The translations under genes and the position numbers were made by a program. Under the pieces are notes generated by a model, which ran no database searches, was not told the origin of the DNA, and saw only the letters and a program-made list of their open reading frames with translations. A DNA stretch of 21,641 nucleotides from a virus: positions 1-21,641 of the IMG/VR virus record IMGVR_UViG_3300009537_000207. One strand, 5' to 3'. Shown here in pieces: positions 49 through 19,844 of the stretch (positions within the stretch are counted from its first letter, which is position 1; each line of letters starts with the position of its first letter).

Positions 49-77
49 ATTATGTGTGTGGATAACGCTTTTGTCAA
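49..77 (-). promoter_or_regulatory. Sigma70-type promoter firing out of the left edge
   Basis: On the minus strand a perfect -35 TTGACA (72-77) is followed after 17 bases by CATAAT (49-54), one mismatch from TATAAT. The -35 embeds the TGA stop of the HNH gene, so this promoter would serve genes left of the window. The ten bases TTACTTGACA are shared with the promoter at 707-736. A DnaA-box-like nonamer lies in the spacer. Confidence 0.6.
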
Positions 78-517
78 GTAAGGCGAGCATATTCACGCTT
101 TAGAGCGAGCAACTCCATAGTCCAATCCATTTTCTTAGTTTTATGGGCATATAAGTCTTGCAAACACTTTTCCCAAAGCCTTATTCTTTTTTTTGACAAA
201 ACTTTTTTTACTAAATTATTATATTCTTTTTCGTTCCAGTGTTTCCAAGCATGGCAGGGTTTACATAGACAGACTATCAATCTAGTGTCGGCATAGGTAG
301 CGCTATTTGAGCGTGTTAGAAGGTGGTCCGCTTGTATTACAGTTTCACTGATTATTTCGTCATCTACAACCTCGCAGTCGCCCCCGCAGTGCCTGAGGTG
401 GCGCAATACACACCCACCGTCACGTTTAGCACAGATAAGTCTCACCCACGCCTGTATGTCGTCTTTTAAGAGAGCTGTGGCAGTTTGAGATTTTCTTTTT
501 AGCCGAGTTCGTTTCAT
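74..517 (-). CDS. HNH-family endonuclease (NinG-like)
   Basis: A 147-residue basic protein that probably cuts or nicks DNA. It resembles phage HNH/NinG-type zinc endonucleases. Visible elements are a first cysteine group (C36, C44, C48), an A-D-H motif at 63-65 (D64, H65) that would form the first half of a beta-beta-alpha-metal fold, and a C83-x-C85-x2-C88-H89 cluster as the second half. The start is basic (MKRTRLKRK). Phage HNH proteins often work with terminase in packaging or in recombination, but no terminase is visible here to decide between them. A terminator (537-560) lies only 20 bases upstream, so transcription must either read through it or start in the short gap. A TATTAT box seven bases before the ATG could give a nearly leaderless message. 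No Shine-Dalgarno sequence is present. Confidence 0.75.
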   Translation of the reverse strand: MKRTRLKRKSQTATALLKDDIQAWVRLICAKRDGGCVLRHLRHCGGDCEVVDDEIISETVIQADHLLTRSNSATYADTRLIVCLCKPCHAWKHWNEKEYNNLVKKVLSKKRIRLWEKCLQDLYAHKTKKMDWTMELLALKREYARLT

Positions 518-706: not shown

Positions 707-736
707 AGTATATCATAATGCTTTACAGTGTGTCAA
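707..736 (-). promoter_or_regulatory. Strong sigma70 promoter upstream of the 165-nt leader
   Basis: On the minus strand a perfect TTGACA (731-736) is followed after 18 bases by TATACT (707-712). It lies between the terminator of the preceding gene (749-781) and the candidate leader RNA, so it defines a separate transcription unit. Start of transcription is expected near 700. Confidence 0.7.
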
Positions 737-748
737 GTAAAATGGCAT

Positions 749-781
749 AAAAAACCCCCTACTTTATAGTTTTCAGGGGTT
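749..781 (-). terminator. Intrinsic terminator of the 61-residue gene
   Basis: On the minus strand AACCCCT (775-781) pairs with GGGGGTT (753-759) and the stem runs into six T residues (749-754). It overlaps the last codons of the small gene ending at 759 and would end the unit that begins at the promoter before the T9SS-domain gene. Confidence 0.8.
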
Positions 782-944
782 CTATCCTTTTTATGACCGA
801 TTTCATGATCATGGTGGTGTCAGAGTAGTCTTCACTTGTACTCCAACTACCAGCTATGACAATGTAATCCTTGGTCTGGCTCACTATCACACCGACAGTA
901 TAATACTCTGTGTCGTAACATGTCTTTGCCTTTTTAAAAGACAT
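759..944 (-). CDS. Small hypothetical phage protein, 61 residues
   Basis: I chose the ATG at 942-944 (MSFKKAK) over a TTG at 956, because that ATG overlaps the stop of the preceding 24-codon frame in the arrangement ATGTCTTTTAA, a sign of translational coupling. The sequence looks like a small soluble mostly beta protein: a T-V-G-V-I-V strand, then Y-I-V-I-A, then an acidic turn and a final I-K-R-I strand. It resembles small phage proteins that share a vGwlv/ivla/Ip pattern and have no known role. That similarity is from memory and only moderate. It is the last gene of its unit, since a terminator overlaps its end. Confidence 0.6.
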   Translation of the reverse strand: MSFKKAKTCYDTEYYTVGVIVSQTKDYIVIAGSWSTSEDYSDTTMIMKSVIKRIEPLKTIK

Positions 945-1010: not shown

Positions 1011-1916
1011 TTAACGTATTAAAGTTATATCAGAAGATTCCCTATGAACCACGCCTTTATAGTCTTCATAGACCAACAAGACAACATAGACCCACGGGTT
1101 ATTGTCGTAGCCATCCCAGCCTTCTAGCTGTTTTACATTCCGTTCTCGGTGTAGAACTGCACCCCATCTGTTGAATACCGTGAACTCAATAAAATTGTGA
1201 ACATAGTATTCTTTTACTCTTGGTAGGTAGATGTCGTTTATCCCATCTCCGTTGGGAGAAAAGATATTCGGTAAGAATACATCTGGTACTTTATCGGACA
1301 CATACTCATTTATATAGAGCGTGTCGCAACATTTACCGTATACATAAGTGTACTGCGGGGTTGGGGTAGTAAAGTCTGTATAGATAATCGTGTCGTATTC
1401 TGTATAACAATACGAGTCTATACAATTTACCCAAAATCTCCCAATAGTATAGGCGTGTTGGTTTGGTATGACACGAAGGATAAAGAAGTCTTTGTTCGTT
1501 CGGTACATAATCCTCGCCATTCCGTAGAAGCCCCACGGATTAGCTGTGTGAAAGTGATAGTCGTATGGAATCATATAGCTTACACTCCAAACACTGTCGT
1601 TAGTAAACCACACAAAGCCATCGTTGCACTCGTCTGTACTATCAAGAAATTCCCAGTTACAGAATATCCATTTAGTGTCAATCAGGGTGTCTCTTGTGTC
1701 GTAGTCCATCAAGATAAATCTATCAGGAACAACGTAAATCATCAGGTCAATGATGAGTAGGGTGTCATACCTACATTGATTTGATTGCCTTATGACAATT
1801 TCAAAAGGTTCTGTATTATCAATGTGTCTTGCAAATTCATCTTTGAATCCGCAGTTTGGTTCGTGTTGTGCGAATAATCCGCACGACAAAAACAAGAGCA
1901 TGATTGTAAATTTCAT
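1011..1916 (-). CDS. Secreted protein with type IX secretion (type B) sorting domain
   Basis: A 301-residue exported protein. Residues 1-16 form a signal peptide (MKFTIMLLFLSCGLFA) with predicted cleavage before Q17, matching the preference for N-terminal glutamine in Bacteroidota signal peptidase I products. Residues about 211-301 match the gliding-motility-associated C-terminal domain that directs cargo through T9SS: F-L-P-N-I-F-S-P-N-G-D-G-I-N-D (214-228), V-F-N-R-W-G (247-252), G-W-D-G (266-269) and the terminal I-T-L-I-R. The middle (20-205) is unrecognised, rich in aromatic residues, cysteines and D-T-L repeats, and predicted to be beta-rich. After export the protein would be released or attached at the host surface. 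It has its own extended -10 promoter, and the 24-residue and 61-residue genes follow. A superinfection-exclusion or receptor-masking role is plausible but is inference. Confidence 0.85.
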   Translation of the reverse strand: MKFTIMLLFLSCGLFAQHEPNCGFKDEFARHIDNTEPFEIVIRQSNQCRYDTLLIIDLMIYVVPDRFILMDYDTRDTLIDTKWIFCNWEFLDSTDECNDGFVWFTNDSVWSVSYMIPYDYHFHTANPWGFYGMARIMYRTNKDFFILRVIPNQHAYTIGRFWVNCIDSYCYTEYDTIIYTDFTTPTPQYTYVYGKCCDTLYINEYVSDKVPDVFLPNIFSPNGDGINDIYLPRVKEYYVHNFIEFTVFNRWGAVLHRERNVKQLEGWDGYDNNPWVYVVLLVYEDYKGVVHRESSDITLIR

Positions 1917-1958: not shown

Positions 1959-1967
1959 ATTATAGCA
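1959..1967 (-). promoter_or_regulatory. Extended -10 promoter for the T9SS-domain gene
   Basis: The minus strand reads TGCTATAAT, a perfect TGnTATAAT extended -10. Transcription would start near 1952, about 36 bases before the ATG. The -35 region is poor. It overlaps back to back with the plus-strand element at 1970-1978. Confidence 0.6.
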
Positions 1968-2016: not shown

Positions 2017-2169
2017 ATGATAAAACACTGCGATCATTGTAAGCAAGACCGCTTTTGCCTGATGATTTCCGAGAAAATCTTTTACGAGAAAAATATTCCC
2101 GTGAGAGTAAATTTGGTCTACAAGTGTCTACGATGTAAGAAGATCAACTGGAAAACAGTTAAGCCATGA
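2017..2169 (+). CDS. 50-residue zinc-ribbon protein, the only plus-strand gene
   Basis: The frame begins MIKHCDHCKQDRFC and ends with a second C-L-R-C pair. C5-x2-C8 and C37-x2-C40 form a four-cysteine zinc ribbon, with C14 as an extra cysteine. It is flanked by an extended -10 promoter upstream and a bidirectional terminator at 2181-2210, so it is a complete one-gene unit on the strand opposite all others. The paired cysteine knuckles make a chance frame unlikely. Zinc ribbons of this size in phages often bind nucleic acid or RNA polymerase, but no specific function can be assigned. Confidence 0.65.
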   Translation: MIKHCDHCKQDRFCLMISEKIFYEKNIPVRVNLVYKCLRCKKINWKTVKP

Positions 2170-2180
2170 GCGACAAATAG

Positions 2181-2210
2181 AAAACCCCTTCAACTTTTTG
2201 GAGGGGTTTT
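2181..2210. terminator. Bidirectional intrinsic terminator between convergent genes
   Basis: A near-perfect 13-bp stem (one G-T pair) with a four-base loop begins with AAAACCCC and ends with GGGGTTTT. It therefore has a U-tract in either direction. It serves the plus-strand zinc-ribbon gene ending at 2169 and the minus-strand operon ending at 2190, whose stop codon is inside the hairpin. Confidence 0.88.
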
Positions 2211-2378
2211 GTTTGTTGGGTACTTAACCTCAATATACTTATCGCAGTGTTTACCTGTGCACCGATATGTTCCAACCATGCACTTCTTTGAGAAGTGGAA
2301 AGCTATCACGTCTAGCCTTCCAGTAGATTGCTTTCTGCAACCTGGGCAGTAGAAACTAATCTCGTACTTCATTACCAT
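2190..2378 (-). CDS. Zinc-finger protein, 62 residues
   Basis: A small protein with C11-x2-C14 near the start (F-Y-C-P-G-C) and C40 and C45 near the end (Y-R-C-T-G-K-H-C), plus H28 and C33 between them, consistent with one zinc site. It probably binds nucleic acid or a protein partner; its role is unknown. The start overlaps the end of the metallophosphoesterase gene by seven bases, so the two are likely translationally coupled. It is the last gene of a four-gene unit ending at the bidirectional terminator. A second small zinc-ribbon gene faces it from the other strand, but apart from the cysteine pairs I see no close similarity between them. Confidence 0.65.
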   Translation of the reverse strand: MVMKYEISFYCPGCRKQSTGRLDVIAFHFSKKCMVGTYRCTGKHCDKYIEVKYPTNKTPPKS

Positions 2379-3526
2379 TTATATTCCCAATCCTTCTGAT
2401 AGAACTCTCTGTCAAAGAAAGGCATCCACTCCGTCTTCATTCGTACGATTCGTCCATCGGGGGCTTGTTGATAATCAACAATCCATCCACCAACATGGGC
2501 AGCGAGACGTTTCTTGCGCATAAAAGGAGTTTGATCTTCTGTCGTTCCTCCCTGAATACAAAACACTCCACGATAGTACAAGAACTCTGCCTTGTGATAG
2601 TGCCCAATCAAAAGAATGTTGGGCTTTTCACCGGGCGTAAAGCTCTCTACGAGTTTCTGAACAGCGTAGCTTAAGGCATAACTTGATCCACCACCAGGGT
2701 GGACTATTCGCAGTTTTGCGCTACCACCCTTTTGCTCCAAAGTAATGTCGGCTTCCATATGGCCTAAGAATTGCAAATCTTTACGACCTGCATACTCTGC
2801 TTGGTTTTGGATGTACTTACCGACATTGATACCTTCACGTTGAGAGTACCAGCCTTCATGATCATCCCCTGTAATGAAATAGGTGATGATCCCCTTACGT
2901 TGTGGATACTTTTCAATCAGGTATTTAACCTGATGGTCAAGCCCATGTGTGTGGAGGTTATGCTTATTAAACCTGAACTCTCCGTCAATCATATTGCCTG
3001 CGTTGTAGACAATGGTTATTCCTGCCTTTTCATAAATGTCGTAAAGGGCTTCAAGAACATCCAGTCTTTCGTACCTTGATCCGAGGTGGTTGTCGGTGCA
3101 GAAACCAAATTTAGTCGCCTCACCTTTCAAATACCTCTGGTCGATAGTAATATGACCTCCTGTTGGAGTTGTCTTCGCAAGTTCAATGCCGCTGTCGTGA
3201 ACGAAAAGGTTTTTCCCTTCGTCCCGTATCTGTGTAATTATCTCTTTTACCCTACCTACTCCACAATCAAACTTATCGGAAATTTTTTCAATAGTCCACT
3301 TCGTTCTCTTGTCTTTGAGTAAGGTTTGAAAGATTTTTTCTTTGAGGTCAATATCTTCCTCTAATCGAAGCTTTAGTTGAGATTTTGCAATCTCGCCGGC
3401 CTTTTTCATGCGATATTTCATCGCTCGGTAGTTGGAAGGACTTACCCCTATTTCCTTAGCTCCTTTTACAGCAGAAAGTTCGGGATGATCCTGAATGAAT
3501 TTCCGTAAAACATTGTTGCGTTTCAT
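2372..3526 (-). CDS. Metallophosphoesterase with N-terminal HTH region
   Basis: A 384-residue calcineurin-like phosphoesterase, expected to hydrolyse phosphodiester or phosphomonoester bonds with two metal ions. Motifs in order are D145-N-H147 (from T-D-N-H-L-G), G-N178-M-I-D181, G-D-D-H223-E, H276-P-G-G and G-H309-Y-H311. The usual GD of motif II is GN here, and the GNHD/E motif reads GDDHE, so catalysis may be altered. The first 110 residues are basic and helical: P-E-L-S-A-V-K-G-A-K-E-I-G-V-S looks like a helix-turn-helix, and 78-104 resembles a second winged-helix segment, suggesting DNA binding. The C-terminus Q-T-P-F-M-R-K-K-R-L-A-A-H-V-G-G-W-I is typical of the phage members of this family. 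It lies three bases after the CxxC gene. The substrate is unknown. Confidence 0.82.
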   Translation of the reverse strand: MKRNNVLRKFIQDHPELSAVKGAKEIGVSPSNYRAMKYRMKKAGEIAKSQLKLRLEEDIDLKEKIFQTLLKDKRTKWTIEKISDKFDCGVGRVKEIITQIRDEGKNLFVHDSGIELAKTTPTGGHITIDQRYLKGEATKFGFCTDNHLGSRYERLDVLEALYDIYEKAGITIVYNAGNMIDGEFRFNKHNLHTHGLDHQVKYLIEKYPQRKGIITYFITGDDHEGWYSQREGINVGKYIQNQAEYAGRKDLQFLGHMEADITLEQKGGSAKLRIVHPGGGSSYALSYAVQKLVESFTPGEKPNILLIGHYHKAEFLYYRGVFCIQGGTTEDQTPFMRKKRLAAHVGGWIVDYQQAPDGRIVRMKTEWMPFFDREFYQKDWEYKW

Positions 3527-4905: not shown

Positions 4906-5136
4906 CTATTTAATAACAGAAAGCCAAAGCTTTCGCACAAGTCCAAACAATGTAGTCATTTTAGTAAACAATATACCAAAAGCTACTACCACTCCCACGA
5001 CAGCTTCTTCTGCGTTGCCAAGTAGTGTTGCATCAATTCCTAAAAGAACCAACAGTGAGACTCCAGATCTTACAGTCAGAGCTACGCTTGATGGATCATT
5101 AGAAGAATATACGAACCATTGAAATAATTTTTTCAT
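4906..5136 (-). CDS. Holin
   Basis: A 76-residue membrane protein expected to permeabilise the inner membrane at the end of infection. There are two predicted spans, about residues 18-39 (from V-A-L-T-V-R-S-G-V-S-L-L-V-L-L-G) and 44-66 (from E-E-A-V-V-G-V-V-V-A-F-G-I-L-F). The N-terminus is short and basic and the C-terminus is basic (R-K-L-W-L-S-V-I-K), fitting a class II holin. The start overlaps the stop of the peptidase fusion by one base (TAATG), so lysin and holin are coupled. The A-L-T-V-R segment before the first span is common in small phage holins. Confidence 0.75.
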   Translation of the reverse strand: MKKLFQWFVYSSNDPSSVALTVRSGVSLLVLLGIDATLLGNAEEAVVGVVVAFGILFTKMTTLFGLVRKLWLSVIK

Positions 5137-6257
5137 TAAAATAATACTTCTTGGGGCTTATCTTTCGCAATATCGCAATGGATATGTTTTGGATAGCCCC
5201 TACTTATTCTTGTAATACCGACCTCTAATAATGCCTTAGTGATAAGGTAATGTTCGTGTGAATCTCTGGCGCGCAAATCTACCGCTTCGCCTGTTAAATG
5301 AGCTGAACTATTTACTCCTCCGACTTCTGCGTTACTTATTGTGGTTCGTTTACCTGAAGTTATCACAAAAGGTATACCAGCCTTCTCTCTTGCTTGATCT
5401 AATTTTTCCACTAGCTCTGATTTTAATCCTACTATTTCCCAATCTGCAAAATATTTGTACTTTTTAGTTACCTCTCCTTTTTTAATTCCAACTATTGGCT
5501 TCAAAGCATAAGCGATAGTTCTAGTTCTTTTCATCAAAAATGGCAGATAAGAATCAAATTCCCAAGTCATAGCCAAAAGGACTATTGCGTGAGTCGGGCT
5601 ACTTTTAGTTACTGCGACTTGTATAGGTGCTTGCTTGAGAGCAGTGTTTAGTTCTATTCCAGTCTCTACCGGCACCCACTCATAGTTTATCTTATATCCC
5701 CCACTTGGCCATTTATCAAACATCACTTCCAAAAATCTCTTGGCTTTATCCCGCATAGCTTGGGTTACTTTTGACTTATCGAGATACTCGGCTTGATTAT
5801 TTCCACTGAAAGGCAGGTCTGCCTCGGGGATCAGACCGGTCTTGCGAAAGTCATCCCACACATTTTGTAGATATTGCCCGTTAGGCATAGTGCCATTACT
5901 AATAGCAGAAAATCGGTCAGAGAAATTGAATACTCCGTCTATTAAATATCCGAAATCTTTTAGCCATTGTGTCTGGTAGGCAGAAAAATATCCATTATCT
6001 AAATAAAATTTAAACAATGCTTCTAGTGCACTTGTACCAGAGAATGTAGAACAACACTTAGTATCAAAAGTAAAGTCTTTATACTGCCTCTCTCCTTCTG
6101 GAGCATATTTTACCCAATCACTAATTAGATTTAAATCTTCGCCCGATAGCGGTGAAGTAGTGCCGAGAATGTAGTCGGTTGGTCTTCGCTCGTATAAGAA
6201 TCCGGACTGCCTCACTGGTTTTTCTTTGAATAAACTTTTTAAGAAATTTAATATCAT
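5136..6257 (-). CDS. Endolysin-like fusion: papain-like cysteine peptidase plus M15 peptidase
   Basis: A 373-residue protein of two domains. The C-terminal part (about 275-370) is a zinc D-Ala-D-Ala-type peptidase of the M15 family: F-V-I-T-S-G-K-R-T (297-305), S-S-A-H320-L-T-G-E-A-V-D327-L and the final H358-I-H360-C-D-I, giving the H/D/H zinc set. It would cut peptide stems of peptidoglycan. The N-terminal part (about 20-245) looks like a papain-fold cysteine peptidase: T-K-C68-C69-S-T-F-S-G-T-S-A-L-E-A-L resembles the active-site helix, and P-T-H223-A-I-V-L-L the histidine strand, with a possible D/S element at 235-236 in place of the usual N-S-W. There is no signal peptide, so the holin at 4906 probably releases it. 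The cysteine-peptidase call is less certain than the M15 call. Confidence 0.8.
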   Translation of the reverse strand: MILNFLKSLFKEKPVRQSGFLYERRPTDYILGTTSPLSGEDLNLISDWVKYAPEGERQYKDFTFDTKCCSTFSGTSALEALFKFYLDNGYFSAYQTQWLKDFGYLIDGVFNFSDRFSAISNGTMPNGQYLQNVWDDFRKTGLIPEADLPFSGNNQAEYLDKSKVTQAMRDKAKRFLEVMFDKWPSGGYKINYEWVPVETGIELNTALKQAPIQVAVTKSSPTHAIVLLAMTWEFDSYLPFLMKRTRTIAYALKPIVGIKKGEVTKKYKYFADWEIVGLKSELVEKLDQAREKAGIPFVITSGKRTTISNAEVGGVNSSAHLTGEAVDLRARDSHEHYLITKALLEVGITRISRGYPKHIHCDIAKDKPQEVLF

Positions 6258-16920: not shown

Positions 16921-18249
16921 TTAGAGGGATCCGAACAACATTGCGCCGTACTTCCTTCTCTGTCGAGGCACTTTCGCGCCGAATAGATAGAGACCTTGGT
17001 ACTTCTTCGCAAACTGGTCTTCAGCTTCCATAACACGACTCTGACTCCACTTGTCCCCATAGGTCATAAAGCCCATGTGGTTAGCAGGCATCAGATAGCC
17101 GACCGTAGCAGCCGTCAAGACCACATCATTCGCCACACCTGAACCAGGTGAGTGACCGGCGCGAGTAGATACTCGTGAGCCAGCGGCAGAGTGAAGGTCA
17201 AATGCTCCGATTCTCATAACACGGCCATTGATGACTGTGCCTGAATAAATCTCGGCAATACCAGAAGGTTGCGTTTCTGAAGCTTGACGTAGTGTAGTAG
17301 TCACTGAAGGAGGAGTTGTTAACTGCCTTCCTTCTGCTGGTACTTCATTATCATCAAGTTTTTCAGCGAGCAATGTCACTTGGTCGTAAATCGAAGCGGC
17401 TGTGACCGAAGTCGGTGCAGCAGCTTGGAATTCCCAGCCGAGTCCCATCATGGTGATGAGGGCAGCATTTCCGTCTCCATATTTAGGGAAGTTGATACCA
17501 TCTCCGCCGAATAATCCGCGTAGAGTGTAACCTTCCTCAAAGTCTGGCCCGGTTACAGCTTCGTCCCACTCGGTAAGAGTAGCGACAATAGAGCTAGTAA
17601 TTCCAGAAATACGATACCAAGGAGACACGAATGCAGCTGTGGATCTTAGACGGAAGCCCTTGTAAAGGTCAGCCGTTTGGAATCCAGCAAAGTAGGTAAT
17701 TCCATCGCGAGGGTTTTCAACCGCTCCGACTGAAGTTTCTACAGTTGCCACACCAGTTGAGCCTATAGTTACGGTTCCGCCAGTGGCAGAGGTAACAATA
17801 GAAGCACTGGTACCAGATGCACCACCATCAACTACAAGATCAATTCCGATCCAGTTACCAGCTTTGACTTCTTCAGCCGCCTTGTTCAAGACGTAAGCAT
17901 CGATAGTACGCTCAAGCACTTGTGTTTGAGCATCTAAGAATGACTGAGGAATATCATCAGCGTAAGTAAATAGTTCTTCTAGCTGATCGAGGGGTACGTT
18001 GTAGTACTTCCTCTTCTCAACTATCAACTGATCTTCAGCATCAGGGAAACGCATAGTCACCATGTCTGTACCCACGACATAATCTCCAAGTTCTGCGGAG
18101 TTCAAGAAGGAAAGGATATTAACTCTATCCCCAGCTTTCTTAATTTCTCCCTCATAGTCCTTGTTGGTTATACCCGGTGTAACAGCGCTTTGGTAGACTC
18201 TACCTAAAACCTTGGCAGCAAATTGTTCTCCAAAATTTGTGATTTCCAT
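16921..18249 (-). CDS. Major capsid protein (HK97 fold)
   Basis: A 442-residue protein that would build the icosahedral shell. The N-terminal part has the usual early features: G-E-I-K-K-A-G-D-R-V-N-I (34-45), an acidic strand, and the long helix D-A-Q-T-Q-V-L-E-R-T-I-D-A-Y-V-L-N-K-A-A-E-E (106-127). The later A-S-I-Y-D-Q-V-T-L-L-A-E-K-L-D-D-N-E-V-P-A-E-G-R-Q-L-T-T-P-P segment (285-314) is a hallmark of phage capsid proteins, and the C-terminus contains beta strands plus a basic end. Between about 137 and 275 is a Gly/Ser/Thr-rich beta region that looks like an inserted domain. The gene directly follows the scaffold-like gene. The start is preceded by an A-rich stretch without a Shine-Dalgarno sequence, and a small hairpin (18256-18272) lies just upstream. 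Confidence 0.88.
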   Translation of the reverse strand: MEITNFGEQFAAKVLGRVYQSAVTPGITNKDYEGEIKKAGDRVNILSFLNSAELGDYVVGTDMVTMRFPDAEDQLIVEKRKYYNVPLDQLEELFTYADDIPQSFLDAQTQVLERTIDAYVLNKAAEEVKAGNWIGIDLVVDGGASGTSASIVTSATGGTVTIGSTGVATVETSVGAVENPRDGITYFAGFQTADLYKGFRLRSTAAFVSPWYRISGITSSIVATLTEWDEAVTGPDFEEGYTLRGLFGGDGINFPKYGDGNAALITMMGLGWEFQAAAPTSVTAASIYDQVTLLAEKLDDNEVPAEGRQLTTPPSVTTTLRQASETQPSGIAEIYSGTVINGRVMRIGAFDLHSAAGSRVSTRAGHSPGSGVANDVVLTAATVGYLMPANHMGFMTYGDKWSQSRVMEAEDQFAKKYQGLYLFGAKVPRQRRKYGAMLFGSL

Positions 18250-19815: not shown

Positions 19816-19844
19816 ATTATAATCTAGTAGCTTTTTTATGTCAA
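19816..19844 (-). promoter_or_regulatory. Consensus sigma70 promoter for the head gene unit
   Basis: On the minus strand TTGACA (19839-19844) is followed after exactly 17 bases by TATAAT (19816-19821), a full consensus match. The -35 embeds the TGA stop of the 92-residue gene, as the promoter at 49-77 does with the HNH stop. Start is expected near 19809. Confidence 0.78.

Follow-up and report, generated by a model that had tools for sequence, protein, structure and literature searches.

A 301-residue protein encoded on a virus contig carries a genuine type B sorting domain of the type IX secretion system (T9SS) behind a Sec signal peptide, and its gene stands under its own promoter among phage genes, in a record that holds no shuttle gene. 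The contig is an IMG/VR virus record of 21,641 bp, which was analysed over its whole length and is called the window here. The favoured explanation, with about an even chance of being right, is that the gene is a moron for a T9SS-targeted surface protein that would use host machinery to alter the surface of the infected cell. A T9SS in the host, secretion of the cargo protein and its purpose are what we infer, and surface modification or superinfection exclusion is a plausible purpose. The gene is divided as follows:

1011..1916, minus strand: T9SS type B cargo gene, 301 aa (open reading frame with PF13585 and TIGR04131 matches)
1869..1916, minus strand: Sec signal peptide, residues 1-16, with predicted cleavage between LFA and Q (Bacteroidetes Q-rule), from the sequence and a crude signal-peptide scan
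1287..1868, minus strand: cargo region, residues ~17-210, beta-rich, with 8 Cys and no homologue found in the searches (AF2 pLDDT roughly 30-70)
1014..1286, minus strand: type B C-terminal sorting domain (CTD), residues ~211-301 (HMM matches, alignment, AlphaFold, Foldseek)

The reading frame runs from an ATG to a TAA stop, and its codon usage falls within the range of the other window genes, its GC content also fitting the phage. The protein begins with MKFTIMLLFLSCGLFA followed by QHEP, which a crude predictor recognises as a Sec signal peptide, a feature of T9SS cargo, with a predicted cleavage that leaves Gln first. Signal peptides leaving an N-terminal Gln are typical of Bacteroidetes (PMC5837995), and the Bacteroidota-style signal peptide described in the first-pass annotation is borne out by this reading frame.

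The sorting domain is recognised by curated models. In hmmscan searches, PF13585 (CHU_C; E=5.5e-10, 39.7 bits against a gathering cut-off of 27) and TIGR04131 (E=1.6e-8) both match residues 215-273, the latter scoring just below its cut-off as protein (34.6 bits against 35) and above it in a DNA-level search (37.1 bits). With matches of this significance, the possibility that neither model would find a T9SS domain falls away. The PNxFSPNGDGIND, FNRWG and WDG blocks are present, and every invariant column of an alignment with seven phage type B domains (PN..P.GD..N, RWG, G, Y) is kept. The final two of the five blocks, presumptively assigned to motifs A-E, are more divergent and lie outside the HMM match (PWVYVVLLVYED and SSDITLIR), with VY and the terminal DITLIR retained. 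The domain had been called unmistakable, a description that suits its N-terminal two thirds and not its degenerate C-terminal third; secretion in F. johnsoniae required all five type B motifs (PMC12618676). AlphaFold, given a 60-row CTD alignment, folds the domain into a four-stranded sheet at pLDDT 90-97, and the model was compared with the published structural description of a type B CTD (PMC12618676). Foldseek returned the T9SS substrate chains 8glk_D, 8gl6_D and 8gl8_D, weakly (E about 0.07-0.08, probability 0.90-1.00), as well as, at E about 1e-6, viral proteins bearing the name 'Gliding motility-associated C-terminal domain'.

The cargo portion spans about 190 aa. Searches with the whole protein or with the cargo alone gave nothing informative in IMG/VR or in genome contigs. 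The cargo likewise found nothing informative among PDB sequences (best E 0.56) and only sub-significant fragments with stop codons in 395 Bacteroidota genomes (E about 0.003), while tblastn against phages matched through the CTD only. The earlier remark that the central 180 residues were unlike anything recognised therefore holds for the viral and genome collections and for PDB sequences. The structure prediction proposed at the same time yielded a beta-rich region and little more: pLDDT was 35 when no alignment was given and mostly 30-70 across the cargo with the CTD alignment, values because of which the cargo's Foldseek matches were left uninterpreted.

Profile searches identify major capsid protein (MCP), scaffold, tail, endolysin and HNH genes in the window. 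A minus-strand run contains the tail fibre, scaffold, MCP and tail genes, a 1274-aa probable internal virion protein and an M15 endolysin, and ends in holin-like, transglycosylase, metallophosphoesterase, cargo, 61-aa and HNH-like genes; some of the gene names in the run are assigned from size and order. The following elements define the surroundings of the cargo gene:

74..517, minus strand: HNH endonuclease-like gene lying beyond the cargo unit (PHROG HNH match, E=1e-3)
747..781, minus strand: terminator-like hairpin with a T-run, downstream of the cargo unit, judged by eye because its loop is too long for the terminator scan
759..941, minus strand: small reading frame that follows the cargo gene within its unit and gives 61 aa when read from an internal ATG
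1959..1967, minus strand: TGC-TATAAT, an extended -10 promoter for the cargo gene (TG at 1967-1966, TATAAT at 1964-1959), 43 nt before the ATG
2181..2210, no strand assigned: terminator-like hairpin separating the cargo unit from the upstream genes (terminator scan, listed on the plus strand)
2372..3526, minus strand: phage gene for a DNA-binding metallophosphoesterase-like protein, upstream of the cargo unit (profile matches)
16921..18249, minus strand: major capsid protein (phrog_267), which defines the phage lineage

The gene had been placed among phage genes with a promoter of its own, and the TGC-TATAAT element and the phage genes on both flanks agree with that placement. Its own promoter, the flanking terminator-like hairpins and the phage-like codon usage and GC content therefore give it the anatomy of a moron. 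The sorting domain is moreover absent from 42 relatives, and the contigs of the close relatives end short of the locus.

Three further observations concern the surroundings. A small Cys-rich reading frame of about 50 aa, with CDHC and CLRC motifs, occupies the gap ahead of the cargo unit (2017-2167, plus strand) and runs opposite to all its neighbours. The endolysin (5136-6257) ends in an M15 peptidase domain, and by eye its N-terminal part resembles a cysteine peptidase. At L002:10987-12174, the closest viral relative of the window's metallophosphoesterase directly precedes a Bacteroidota-style secreted protein that starts SHIVGVEVNYS; by eye, the end of this protein looks like a truncated type A tail, although it matches no model.

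Type B domains recur in other phages. A single conserved-motif scan of IMG/VR found them on 42 contigs (28 distinct), in proteins of 107 to 1059 aa, and two 640-kb phages also have them. Several of the proteins consist of little beyond a signal peptide and the CTD:

L224:5944-6267 and L232:5944-6267: near-cargo-less CTD proteins of 107 aa
L228:4063-4431 and L230:5884-6252: near-cargo-less CTD proteins of 122-123 aa, a size shared by one in L231
L213:2735-3154: near-cargo-less CTD protein of 139 aa, a size shared by one in L215

A two-gene cassette was also seen in unrelated phages, in which a gene for a secreted protein with a PKD-like domain is directly followed by one for a short type B CTD protein. 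The domain was confirmed with Pfam for L202 and L203, and the PKD-like protein closes with what looks like the opening strand of a following domain, which in several cases is in the style of NPTPVTGAITHD or PIPVLDNISHD. Possible explanations are a split adhesin and a donor-strand pair. Its occurrences are:

L193:598-1747, PKD-like and CTD cassette
L202:5273-6177, PKD-like and CTD cassette
L203:5153-6285, PKD-like and CTD cassette
L208:5204-6228, PKD-like and CTD cassette
L220:5172-6273, PKD-like and CTD cassette
L225:5169-6240, PKD-like and CTD cassette

A general link between phage CTD genes and lysis genes was considered and dropped, as the gene contexts vary.

Type B substrates require a PorP/SprF shuttle (PMC12618676, PMC9143113), and PorP-like proteins anchor type B proteins (PMC9143113). 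Each of three Bacteroidota genomes has 8-14 PorP/SprF genes, and none was found in the 37 CTD-bearing phage records, the window included, many of these records being fragments. Since type B substrates need a shuttle and these records contain none, the phage proteins would have to borrow one from the host. A nearby cognate shuttle, which is a common feature of type B genes and not a defining one, does not accompany the window gene. Its absence is not peculiar to phages, because many host type B genes also have no neighbouring shuttle gene, and F. johnsoniae has three orphan type B substrates (PMC12618676). For this reason, and because of the fragmentary records, the missing genes are only suggestive of a dependence on host shuttles.

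If the gene is a moron of the favoured kind, the cargo protein would be exported by Sec, would then cross the outer membrane via the infected cell's own T9SS, aided by a host PorP/SprF shuttle, and would be retained on the cell surface. There it would most likely alter how the infected cell appears to other phages or to neighbours, through superinfection exclusion or receptor interference; the effect might come from its cargo domain, or from its taking up shuttles that host type B adhesins need. The gliding machinery is a suspected phage receptor (PMC7345892). Points for this explanation are the CTD, seen by HMM, alignment and predicted fold, its recurrence on viral contigs, the lack of a PorP/SprF gene in the phage records and a close relative's terminase, nearest to those of Bacteroidota phages. 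Points against it are the non-Bacteroidota promoters, the absence of CHU_C from the 42 relatives, the few signal-peptide genes of the lineage, the scarcity of its capsid gene in Bacteroidota, the degenerate third of the CTD and a cargo that has no known relative.

Several of these latter points feed the main rival, a doubtful but substantial one, in which the gene is a passenger: a Bacteroidota-type surface protein picked up under a phage promoter, its tag idle in a host that lacks a T9SS. A capsid-profile scan found 41 loci of the window's phage lineage, several near 40 kb. CHU_C was found in 0/42 lineage relatives searched, which favours the passenger, and type A T9SS domains were absent from the first eight, the only ones in which they were sought. 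The window's capsid gene is practically absent from the 395 Bacteroidota genomes, and a crude scan of the lineage found few signal-peptide genes and one other Q-rule candidate only.

Promoter sequences also speak for the passenger. Upstream of genes in the lineage (681 kb), TATAAT occurs 90 times against 18.0 expected, TTGA-16/18-TAnnAT pairs 32 times against 7.0 and TGnTATAAT 13 times against 0.8, while TAnnTTTG, at 23 against 17.0, gives no indication of Bacteroidota-type promoters. In six phages of named Bacteroidota hosts, TAnnTTTG occurs 45 times against 12.0 and the -35/-10 pair 4 times against 3.9, a contrast with the lineage at a Fisher p of about 4e-8, and Bacteroidota chromosomes agree with these phages (28 against 5.3; 44 against 9.6). 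All of these counts depend on a simple ORF caller and first-order shuffles, and the stricter two-box count, with its small number of sites, carries less weight than the -10 counts. Lineage totals were used because the counts for the window alone vary with the ORF cut-off (5 against 0.0 or 2 against 0.0). The window itself contains near-perfect sigma-70 promoters:

19816-19844, minus strand: TTGACA-17-TATAAT, a perfect match
707-736, minus strand: TTGACA-18-TATACT

The perfect promoter, at 19821, is of the same kind as that of the cargo gene and is a further point for the passenger, as is the degenerate C-terminal third of the CTD. Such near-perfect sigma-70 promoters are unusual for a phage that carries a Bacteroidota-type secreted protein.

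The promoter evidence argues against a Bacteroidota host, and other signals conflict with it. Shine-Dalgarno use in the lineage is very low, at 9% compared with 2% in Bacteroidota phages and 60% in three other phages, and a close relative's terminase lies nearest to those of Bacteroidota phages, at 42%, the best from other hosts reaching about 27% among the matches listed. These two signals sit poorly with a passenger, and so does a reading frame that is intact, with a signal peptide, a well-placed promoter and phage-like codon usage. The supposition that the phage infects a gliding host with a T9SS is not established, given canonical sigma-70 promoters in the lineage and no CHU_C in the relatives. 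Following the promoter test, the idea that the cargo gene simply marks a Bacteroidota host was abandoned.

Two features of other phage contigs were noted by eye. A large surface-sugar gene cassette, conserved across the lineage (read in the window phage's relatives G006, G008, G504 and G505), comprises an aminotransferase, an N-acetyl-sugar amidotransferase-like gene, epimerases, a split transketolase and acetyltransferases. At G007:11762-13636, on a phage contig that shares one tail gene with the window, GroEL-like and GroES-like genes are followed by a small KH-domain-like gene.

It is rather unlikely, although consistent with the canonical sigma-70 promoters, that a lineage with non-Bacteroidota hosts took a T9SS type B protein into its own regulation, in which case such proteins might be displayed beyond Bacteroidota, or minimal tags might interfere with shuttles and surface receptors. 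Somewhat less probable again is that activity resides in the CTD itself, which would titrate the host PorP/SprF, so that adhesins serving as phage receptors would be kept off the surface. Such a decoy would suit the several phage proteins of 107-139 aa with little beyond signal peptide and CTD, the lack of a phage-encoded shuttle, and the finding that overproduced type B fusions needed co-expression of the cognate shuttle for their secretion (PMC12618676); the window protein, however, has about 190 aa of cargo, and activity of type B CTDs as decoys is hypothetical.

The closeness of the gene to the lysis cassette raises the improbable alternative that its product is a virion or lysis component and not a secreted effector. 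The gene does follow those for the endolysin, holin-like protein and transglycosylase, and the CTD gene of L193 directly precedes an M15-type peptidase gene. Yet its own promoter sets it apart from the late block, other phage CTD genes occur in varied contexts, for example beside thymidylate synthase or baseplate-type genes, and a Sec signal peptide is unusual among virion proteins. Least probable of all is an assembly chimera, with Bacteroidota DNA joined on at the end of the contig, or the host-chromosome join that the first-pass annotation had allowed for: the gene lies less than 2 kb from that end, no relative covers the junction and the HNH gene beyond it has no relative found in viral contigs, but no join is visible, the promoter upstream matches the phage's own kind and no Bacteroidota promoter is present, GC and codon usage match the phage, the gene shares the strand of all its neighbours and the far-side gene is phage-like.

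Phage-encoded T9SS cargo is already known as a kind, with type A published and type B phage proteins in databases. Cryophage, a tailed phage, encodes proteins with T9SS type A sorting domains, for which hijacking of the host system and superinfection exclusion were proposed (Bellas et al. 2020, PMC7468147). In that 76 kb phage, inferred to infect Bacteroidetes, the domains are borne by an endoglucanase, a GH39 protein and a PA14 protein, whereas the window protein has a type B domain on a cargo with no known relative, in a different phage lineage. T9SS sorting domains also occur on phage proteins near structural genes in gut crAss-like phages, where they are fused to or lie beside BACON repeats (PMC6949934). 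Type B CTDs appear in BFVD and UniProt on phage proteins named 'Gliding motility-associated C-terminal domain', including the 108-aa A0A8D9CF28, but as database annotations only, and no publication on phage type B domains turned up in literature searches. The Sec signal, the type B CTD and its conserved blocks are shared by SprB and further type B substrates (PMC12618676, PMC9143113), but these are host adhesins, usually much longer and often encoded beside a shuttle gene, which the phage record lacks. Porphyromonas gingivalis phages encode proteins with Q-rule signal peptides that are suggested to modify the host envelope, although T9SS domains are not mentioned there (PMC10367356). What is added here is the type B class with a cargo of no known relative, a survey of phage type B proteins that includes near-cargo-less ones, and the promoter conflict.

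The promoter test provides a simple check on the claimed Bacteroidota hosts of phages. In the present case it contradicts the sorting tag, a conflict to be settled before the gene can serve as a host marker. If the protein is secreted, phages would dress the surface of infected cells by way of the T9SS and the restricted set of outer-membrane shuttles that serves it. Superinfection-exclusion or receptor-blocking proteins would then be expected as a class, one that is testable in gliding bacteria.
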